Shown here: positions 4,179 to 5,826 of the stretch, in pieces | Layout: each line of letters begins with the position of its first letter | How positions within the stretch are numbered: the stretch's first letter is position 1 | Assembly: GCA_016125275.1 (NCBI GenBank) | Contig: WGMB01000015.1 | Location: 62,001 to 126,000, forward strand | Direction: 5' to 3' | DNA from: Acidobacteriota bacterium | GTDB lineage: Bacteria > Acidobacteriota > Terriglobia > Bryobacterales > UBA6623 | Length of the DNA stretch: 64,000 bases | The notes under the pieces: model-generated | The model's database searches: none | Told to the model about the DNA's origin: nothing | What the model saw: only the letters and a program-made list of their open reading frames with translations | Made by a program: the position numbers and the translations under genes

Positions 4179-4463
4179 ATGTCGCGACGCCTCTTCCTGC
4201 TCGCCCTCGGCCTCGCCACGCGCCTGGCCGCCGCCGACCGGCCGGGCCTGTCCGCCCGGGAACTCCGCAGTGAAGAGCTGCGCGACGCCCGTGAGCGCAT
4301 CGAGTGCCGCCGGGAGGAGATGCGCGCGGCGGCGGCCCGGGTCCGGAGCCGCGCCCAGGATTCCTCCGCCAACGGCGAGGGCCCGGGAGACCGCTCGTCG
4401 CGGCCCCGGGCCCGGGTTTTGTCCGTGTCGTCCCGGCCGGAGCGTCCCCGGCCGCGGCCTTAG
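4179..4463 (+). CDS. Small putative secreted protein
   Basis: A 94-codon frame beginning with a plausible signal peptide ([18 protein letters not shown]). A charged helical stretch rich in Arg and Glu follows (about residues 28-60), then a low-complexity Arg/Pro/Ser tail. The tail is coded by a region that also contains GGGCCCGGG and CCCGGGCCC arms followed by TTTT, so part of it may really be a terminator. It overlaps the end of the DAHP synthase gene by four bases in convergent orientation. The AGAG sequence upstream is a weak ribosome-binding site. It may be a spurious or decaying gene. Confidence 0.35.
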
Positions 4464-5515
4464 GCCGGTTGCAGCGTCGCCGCCGGCGAAGCCGCGGGAC
4501 GGTGGTTCTTCCACAGCTCCAGGTAGGGCTTGAGGTCGTCCATCATCTGGGCGAACTCGTCGAAGGTCAACGACTGCTGACCGTCGCTCCAAGCCTTTTC
4601 CGGCTCCGGGTGCACTTCCACCATCATGCCGTCGGCGCCCACCGCGACCACCGCCCGCGCCAGCGGCGGAATCAGGGCGCGCTTGCCCGACGAGTGCGCC
4701 GGATCGAGGATCACCGGCAAGTGCGTGAGCTGGTTGAGCACCGGCACCGCCTGAATGTCCAACGTGTTCCGCGTGGAGGTCTCGAAGGTCCGGATGCCTC
4801 GCTCGCACAGCACCACGTTCGAGTTGCCGTGCGCCACGATGTACTCGGCCGACAGCAACAGCTCCTTGCAGGTCGTGCTCAGGCCGCGCTTGAGCAGGAT
4901 CGGGCGCTGCACGCGGCCCACTTCCTTGAGCAGCGGGAAGTTCTGCACGTTGCGGGCGCCGATCTGCAGCATGTCGGCGTACTCGGCCACCAAGTCCACG
5001 TTCGTCACGGTCATGACCTCGGTCACCACCGCCAGACCGGTGCGGTCCGCCGCCTTGCGCAGCAGCTTCAGCCCCTCTTCTTCCAAACCCTGGAAGCTGT
5101 AGGGGGAGCTGCGCGGCTTGTAGGCGCCTCCGCGCAGGAACTTCGCGCCGTGCGACGCCACGAACTCCGCCGTGGCCATGATCTGCTTCTCGGTCTCGAC
5201 CGAGCACGGGCCGGCGATCACGCCGAACTCCGCGCCGCCGAAGGAACGACCTTCGCCGACGGGGACGATCGTGTGCTCCTTCTTCACTTCGCGGCTCACC
5301 ATCTTGTAAGGGGCGGAAATGGGCACGGCGCTCTCCACGAATTCCGAGGACTCGAGCGACTCCAACGCGTGGGTGACGTCGCCGATTCCAACCGCGGCGA
5401 TGACGACCCTCTCATCGCCCTGGATCGAATGAACCTTGTAGCCGAAGTTTTCGATGCGCTCGCAGATATGGTCGATCTGCTCCTTCGTAGCGCCTCGCTT
5501 CATCGAGATGATCAT
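4460..5515 (-). CDS. aroF: 3-deoxy-7-phosphoheptulonate (DAHP) synthase, type I-beta
   Basis: It condenses phosphoenolpyruvate and erythrose 4-phosphate, the first step of the shikimate pathway. The 351-residue protein has an N-terminal ferredoxin-like regulatory domain (residues 1-70), as in the Thermotoga-type enzyme that responds to aromatic amino acids, followed by the barrel. Barrel motifs include [28 protein letters not shown], the metal and substrate segment [10 protein letters not shown], and DPAHSSGKR. The ATG at 5515 has an AGGTG site before it. A longer frame starting near 5545 would read through the upstream terminator hairpin and is rejected. Expression is probably set by the attenuator just upstream. 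Confidence 0.95.
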
Positions 5516-5530
5516 GGTTGCACCTGAAAC

Positions 5531-5560
5531 AAAAAACCCACCCAATTCAGCGTGGGCGGG
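5531..5560 (-). terminator. Attenuator terminator in the DAHP synthase leader
   Basis: On the minus strand, CCCGCCCA (5553-5560) pairs with TGGGTGGG (5537-5544) across an 8-base loop, with one G-U pair. Six T follow at 5531-5536. It ends 15 bases before the DAHP synthase ATG. No minus-strand gene lies upstream for it to terminate except the short leader frame, so it fits an attenuator. Confidence 0.75.
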
Positions 5561-5617
5561 TTCCTAAGCAGCTTCCGCGAAGCGCTCTATGCCGGAACGA
5601 CGCCACTGTCCGGGGCT

Positions 5618-5692
5618 TTAGCAGCCCGGAAATCGATAAACCCAGCGGTCGGCGTCGAGAGAGCGCATCGCGTAAGGCCTTATTTCTACCAT
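5618..5692 (-). CDS. Putative aromatic leader peptide upstream of DAHP synthase
   Basis: A 24-codon frame that ends 103 bases before the DAHP synthase start. A shorter version from the ATG at 5668 gives 16 residues and has AAGG 9-10 bases upstream, so it is the more likely start. The frame contains WVYRF, that is Trp, Tyr and Phe within five codons, a few codons before the stop. A hairpin at 5610-5629 (CCGGGCT with AGCCCCGG) covers the stop codon, and the terminator follows. This order of leader peptide, early hairpin and terminator is the classical ribosome-mediated attenuation layout. Confidence 0.55.
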   Translation of the reverse strand: MVEIRPYAMRSLDADRWVYRFPGC

Positions 5693-5826
5693 GGGGCCCG
5701 ATCCGCTGTAAAGCGCAAACCGAACCGCCGCCTTGGGAACGTTCGCCCGGCGAAAACGCCCTTCCCGAAACCCGCCCGCCCAACCGGACCGGCTCCGTGG
5801 ATGCCGCCGCCGCGCCGCGGACCGCC

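Follow-up and report, generated by a model that had tools for sequence, protein, structure and literature searches.

Does the short minus-strand stretch ahead of the DAHP synthase gene in this Acidobacteriota genome act as a transcription attenuator, and which amino acids would it read? We analyzed this leader in the window, by which we mean the whole 64-kb stretch of DNA, and in related and more distant genomes. We conclude that it is very probably a transcription attenuator of the ribosome-mediated kind, sensing Trp, Tyr and Phe and acting on the one DAHP synthase gene that the genome has.

Layout of the leader in the window

An earlier note had described three elements here, and all were recovered: a leader peptide with W-V-Y-R-F, a stop-codon hairpin, and a T-tailed terminator 15 bases ahead of the DAHP synthase ATG. 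The minus-strand open reading frame 5692..5618 translates as MVEIRPYAMRSLDADRWVYRFPGC followed by a stop, with TGG GTT TAT CGA TTT at 5644-5630. The terminator is a 10-bp stem (5562-5535, -16.5 kcal/mol) followed by six T (5536-5531) and a 15-base spacer (5530-5516), after which the DAHP synthase ATG stands at 5515. The features, as they are now assigned, are as follows.

5707..5712, minus strand: -35-like hexamer TTTACA, 18 nt ahead of the -10-like hexamer
5683..5688, minus strand: -10-like hexamer TAGAAA, assigned on the basis of relatives, with a gap of 14 nt to the leader ATG
5618..5668, minus strand: leader peptide frame, MRSLDADRWVYRFPGC and stop codon (16 aa), with the second ATG as start
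5651..5656, minus strand: region 1 (GACGCC), immediately 5' of the control codons
5630..5644, minus strand: control codons TGG GTT TAT CGA TTT (W V Y R F)
5610..5629, minus strand: stop-codon hairpin CCGGGC-TGCTAAA-GCCCCGG, sitting inside the 1:2 loop
5594..5607, minus strand: region 2 (AGTGGCGTCGTTCC), partner of region 1 or region 3
5552..5564, minus strand: region 3 (GGAACCCGCCCAC), 3' arm of the antiterminator and 5' arm of the terminator
5531..5544, minus strand: region 4 and T run (TGGGTGGGTTTTTT), which give the intrinsic terminator its 3' arm and tail
4460..5515, minus strand: type I DAHP synthase carrying an N-terminal ferredoxin-like domain, the putative regulated gene

A simple consensus scan called neither a promoter nor a terminator at the leader, so both assignments rest on comparison and on other analyses. 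As a whole the leader folds more stably than 200 of 200 shuffles (z -3.68). Starts of short frames with three aromatics in six codons number 35 in the whole 64-kb window, and a terminator within 110 nt follows just one aromatic-rich frame (two of its start codons), that of the DAHP leader. Ownership of the terminator by an upstream gene was ruled out, the upstream neighbour being a divergent hydantoinase gene (PF01968 and PF05378) on the plus strand; the leader thus occupies a divergent intergenic stretch.

The earlier reading had placed the start of the frame at 5692, and here it had to be corrected to the second ATG at 5668, which gives a peptide of 16 residues. The first ATG lies in the promoter, between TTTACA (5712-5707) and TAGAAA (5688-5683), and is very unlikely as a start because relatives have their -10 box directly before the second ATG; an ATG at 5692 would not be transcribed. 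Among leaders with a called peptide, 80 of 90 (shuffle mean 5.3) have a TAnnnT -10 box that ends 7-12 nt upstream of the leader ATG, with a peak at 8-9 nt, which would leave almost no 5' untranslated region before that ATG. Transcription in most species would thus begin 0-5 nt ahead of it. The -10 of the window itself is weak and stands 14 nt away, and transcription there probably starts near 5676, about 8 nt upstream of this codon. A Shine-Dalgarno-like 4-mer precedes the leader ATG in 6 of the 90 leaders, against 22 of 35 for the DAHP synthase ATG, which suggests that ribosomes load at the leader ATG without a Shine-Dalgarno site. Three hits of the covariance model described below (L212, L214 and L229) had no called peptide and were left out of the peptide set.

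Competing helices and control codons

Alignment of 35 leaders from relatives defined four regions: region 1 before the control codons, region 2 after the stop codon, and regions 3 and 4 flanking the terminator loop. The window pairs GACGCC with GGCGTC as 1:2 and GTGGCGTCGTTCC with GGAACCCGCCCAC as 2:3. RNAalifold on the plain alignment sees the terminator alone, since 2:3 and 3:4 are mutually exclusive; we therefore used a swap test, which compares duplex energies of native pairs with those of pairs exchanged between species. Native 1:2, 2:3 and 3:4 were better among the 35 leaders, with 0 of 5000 permutations each, and with one leader per genus (n=18) the values were 0, 14 and 0 of 5000, respectively. 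Pairings outside the model (1:3 and 2:4) gave no signal in the same test. The terminators of L036, L044 and L046 had been assigned by pattern before the folding tests. All three helices thus covary between species, and the alternative antiterminator fold that the earlier note had suggested looking for was found as 2:3.

With region 1 hidden, nascent RNA pairs region 3 back onto region 2 in 32 of the 35 leaders, and stepwise folding of the window leader forms 1:2 and 2:3 at the right stages of transcription. The stop-codon hairpin is more stable than shuffles across the leader set (mean -8.3 vs -5.4 kcal/mol, z -8.2), falling singly below z -1 in 26 of 35. In the window, the antiterminator segment shows no gain in stability over shuffles (z +0.8), and at equilibrium the terminator still leads by about 13 kcal/mol when region 1 is hidden (-22.7 vs -35.6). 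In only two of the 35 leaders does the antiterminator come within 3 kcal/mol of the most stable fold, the terminator winning by more in 33. With the terminator so favoured at equilibrium, the outcome must be settled kinetically, while the RNA is being made, in line with the usual view of attenuators.

Among the called leader peptides, Phe occurs in 90 of 90, Tyr in 89 and Trp in 84, and all three occur together in 84. Peptide calling demanded at least three aromatics, not all three kinds, so the aromatic share (31% in leader peptides vs 5% in the genes downstream) is partly selected, and the presence of three kinds is not. Phe is encoded by TTT at 200 of 246 positions in leaders vs 169 of 595 in genes, and Arg by CGA at 77 of 235 vs 109 of 1312; both biases would reflect selection for slow decoding. 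Aromatic codons are thus kept in all 90 called leaders, and together with the three covarying helices they bear out the earlier claim of a classical attenuation architecture at the first shikimate step. Within the control codons, a CGA-TTT pair (Arg-Phe; in the window at 5635-5630) is conserved and has a pairing role in none of the named helices.

The spacing of these parts fits attenuation. Region 1 ends 6 nt before TGG and region 2 starts 10 nt past the stop codon, distances that would let a stalled ribosome cover region 1 and let one that has arrived at the stop codon reach region 2. In the proposed mechanism, transcription would start a few nucleotides from the leader ATG, where a ribosome would load without a Shine-Dalgarno site. 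Given ample Trp-, Tyr- and Phe-tRNA, the ribosome would proceed to the stop codon and cover region 2, and the 3:4 terminator would form before the gene. A shortage of any one of these would stall the ribosome at W-V-Y-R-F, where it would cover region 1; 2:3 would then pair before region 4 is made, and RNA polymerase would continue into the DAHP synthase gene. A transcript with no ribosome would pair 1:2 and then form the terminator. The sequence, the helices and their covariation are direct observations; the behaviour of the ribosome and the response to amino acids are deduced from them.

Other explanations were weighed against this attenuator. TnaC-like arrest by the peptide sequence itself, at its Arg-aromatic end and with a free aromatic amino acid as a possible ligand, would put the terminator under the control of arrest and not of hungry codons. 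It would account for an Arg followed by Phe or Tyr in 31 of the 35 peptides, and for CGA at 27 of 41 such positions, neither of which any helix explains. We regard it as very unlikely, however: nearby residues exchange freely among Trp, Phe and Tyr, the skew of Phe toward TTT points to decoding, and ligand-induced arrest that frees the antiterminator has the wrong sign for a biosynthetic gene. Control of the terminator by an RNA-binding protein or directly by tRNA, as in a T-box, with an incidental reading frame, is scarcely credible. Terminator switches of such kinds exist, and nothing more speaks for it; Rfam gave no match at the gathering level in the 64-kb window, where no T-box or other family model matched and the single sub-threshold match at E up to 5 was anti-hemB (13.8 bits vs 49.5), and the aromatic codons are conserved throughout the called leaders. 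Ten loci from named genomes and elsewhere, several Desulfuromonadales among them, likewise matched no Rfam family except a tRNA.

The remaining explanations concern what the switch does in the cell. The window copy might be a decayed attenuator that terminates constitutively and has lost its response, as its unremarkable antiterminator stability, the large energy advantage of its terminator, and the loss of the element from a sister genus could suggest. Such decay appears improbable, since every part is present, 1:2 and 2:3 form in the proper order, and energy gaps as large are also found among the 35 relatives. Slightly less improbable, though still unlikely, is action of the terminated leader RNA or peptide in trans, besides or instead of the cis switch, like the Sinorhizobium meliloti trp leader. 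Once terminated, the leader RNA would be a short mRNA that is nearly leaderless in the way of rnTrpL, which begins at its ATG according to the accessible part of PMC7298713; against this, the conserved parts serve the cis switch and the peptide is variable outside its aromatic block.

Occurrence in Acidobacteriota and in other phyla

Named relatives, such as genome bins of Bryobacterales and Bryobacteraceae, place the window in the order Bryobacterales of the class Terriglobia. The protein search found a match in 60 of 61 genomes. Upstream of the main-type orthologous loci of the order Bryobacterales, the full element is present in 35 of 51 and missing in 16. All 11 loci of genus g5 (L008-L018) lack it, as do L022, L026, L040, L041 and L047; g5 belongs to the same family as the window and is the sister genus of g15. 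L019, whose start was not found, was left out, the same locus being counted as L049. L040 (genome G034) keeps a terminator and a promoter-like box and is missing the leader frame, and it looks like a deletion remnant of the attenuator. As an internal control, a second DAHP paralog, which follows an apparent chorismate mutase gene, had such a terminator at 0 of 18 loci. Within genus g16, the loci L031, L044 and L046 carry a conserved TCTTTCGAGGCAGAAG between terminator and gene; its complement, CTCGAAAGAG, lies in the terminator loop and arm 4, and the arrangement resembles a fifth region.

A covariance model built from the 35 leaders matched its own genome once, at the DAHP leader, and found no second attenuator there. 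At E 0.01 it matched 164 of 299 genomes of the class, weak matches including bare terminators. Hits that were fetched precede a DAHP synthase in 58 of 68 cases (56 of 56 at 33.5 bits or more, 2 of 12 below). A further 13 loci yielded eight leaders, all beyond the first 35 and all with DAHP synthase as the next gene (8 of 8). The element thus occurs in at least six families of the class Terriglobia, f1, f2 and f3 within the order and f6, f7 and f8 elsewhere. A sample of the phylum gave matches in 19 of 396 genomes at 1e-5, and divergent leaders precede DAHP synthase outside the class but within this sample (L251-L254). In the genome of the window, no aromatic leader was found upstream of trpE.

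Aromatic-rich short frames also lie upstream in 40 of 80 loci from named genomes, a raw count in which three look like chance. Among them, the Desulfuromonadales peptides read like MNSNRFYIAFSFYFWFGFYFRPSARVEV; their end carries GTCTGCCC, and the 5' terminator arm contains its pairing partner GGGCAGAC. Both a peptide and a hairpin were found in 22 of 24 Desulfuromonadales-type loci, arm 3 pairing back over at least half of its length; in this count L136 has no terminator, L133 has no ATG peptide, and L140 was scored on a second hairpin. These leaders are similar to those of Acidobacteriota, a likeness in layout that need not imply kinship. Aromatic leaders before the same type of DAHP synthase occur at L136-L176 (Desulfuromonadales), L141, L158, L169, L178 and L122, which represent other phyla and another Acidobacteriota group; the antiterminator differs there, being mostly GTCTGCCC with GGGCAGAC.

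A broader interpretation is possible, which we put forward tentatively and hold to be somewhat less probable than its opposite. An old all-aromatic attenuator may travel across phyla with the ferredoxin-domain DAHP synthase, in several Acidobacteriota classes, Desulfuromonadales and other former deltaproteobacteria, and Methylomirabilota. It would combine the three amino acids in an OR gate; leaderless loading would let the sensor work from the first RNA nucleotides onward, a conserved slow-decoding brake (CGA-TTT, often then TGG) would set its sensitivity, and the attenuator could replace or outlive feedback on the enzyme.

Known attenuators and the putatively regulated enzyme

The classical leader-peptide attenuators are those of trp and pheA in enterobacteria. 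With these the DAHP leader shares end-product codons in the leader peptide, three mutually exclusive helices and an intrinsic terminator before the gene; it differs in reading Trp, Tyr and Phe at the first shared step, in having no Shine-Dalgarno site, and in an extra stop-codon hairpin. The ilvGMEDA and thr leaders sense several amino acids, so that one peptide reads several end products as here, but for the branched-chain or threonine pathways. Escherichia coli and similar bacteria handle the first aromatic step with separate isozymes and repressors. The ribosome-mediated attenuator class is described in PMC7298713, the accessible part of which reports that the S. meliloti attenuator RNA rnTrpL starts at its own leader ATG and is translated leaderless. 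The DAHP leader would resemble trpL/rnTrpL in a transcript start at or near the leader ATG, whereas, so far as that part goes, trpL reads Trp alone and precedes trpE(G); the two are likened by layout and not by sequence kinship. Leader peptides, antiterminators and terminators of trp, leu and ilv attenuators in Actinobacteria were predicted by comparison (PMC1262725, accessible part), an approach common to both studies, but aroF, aroG, aroH and DAHP have 0 occurrences in that part.

According to the accessible part of a 2010 terminator survey (PMC2965389), the attenuators predicted in Acidobacteria were nearly all without an associated function, and leader-peptide systems were known only from Proteobacteria, Actinobacteria and, newly, Firmicutes. 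A full-text literature search found no DAHP synthase leader like this in Acidobacteriota or Geobacter, although subscription journals may hold an earlier mention. The mechanism is textbook knowledge; as far as was searched, what is new is the DAHP synthase leader itself, the sensing of all three aromatics and how widely the element occurs. Acidobacteriota thereby gain a concrete attenuator case with sensor, switch and target, in which one leader covers three aromatic amino acids at their shared first step. The leader also offers a test of attenuation without a Shine-Dalgarno site on the leader peptide.

The gene downstream, DAHP synthase, serves synthesis of the very amino acids that are sensed. 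Its product combines PF00793 with an N-terminal ferredoxin-like PF18152, in keeping with the earlier claim of an N-terminal regulatory domain, and matches the 1rzm/3pg9 structure type (E 1.5e-109), which we take to be the Thermotoga maritima DAHP synthase. That enzyme is of the same type, but its control lies in the enzyme itself and not in a leader RNA. The genome of the window holds no second close DAHP synthase, the other protein match being distant (33% identical), and no class II DAHP synthase (PF01474). Double control, by the leader and by the enzyme domain, is plausible.

Related genera have parted with one or the other component. Genus g15 has lost the ferredoxin-like domain (L260 without PF18152; L258 of 266 aa) and kept the leader (L068-L070), whereas in genus g5 the enzyme is full-length and the leader has been lost; the pair offers a test of how leader control and enzyme feedback substitute for each other. 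In the last 40 nt before the DAHP synthase ATG, several of the g5 loci (L008-L018) carry a small inverted repeat (e.g. GGATTTTCTATCC) followed by AAGG, and this repeat near the start may represent a replacement control.
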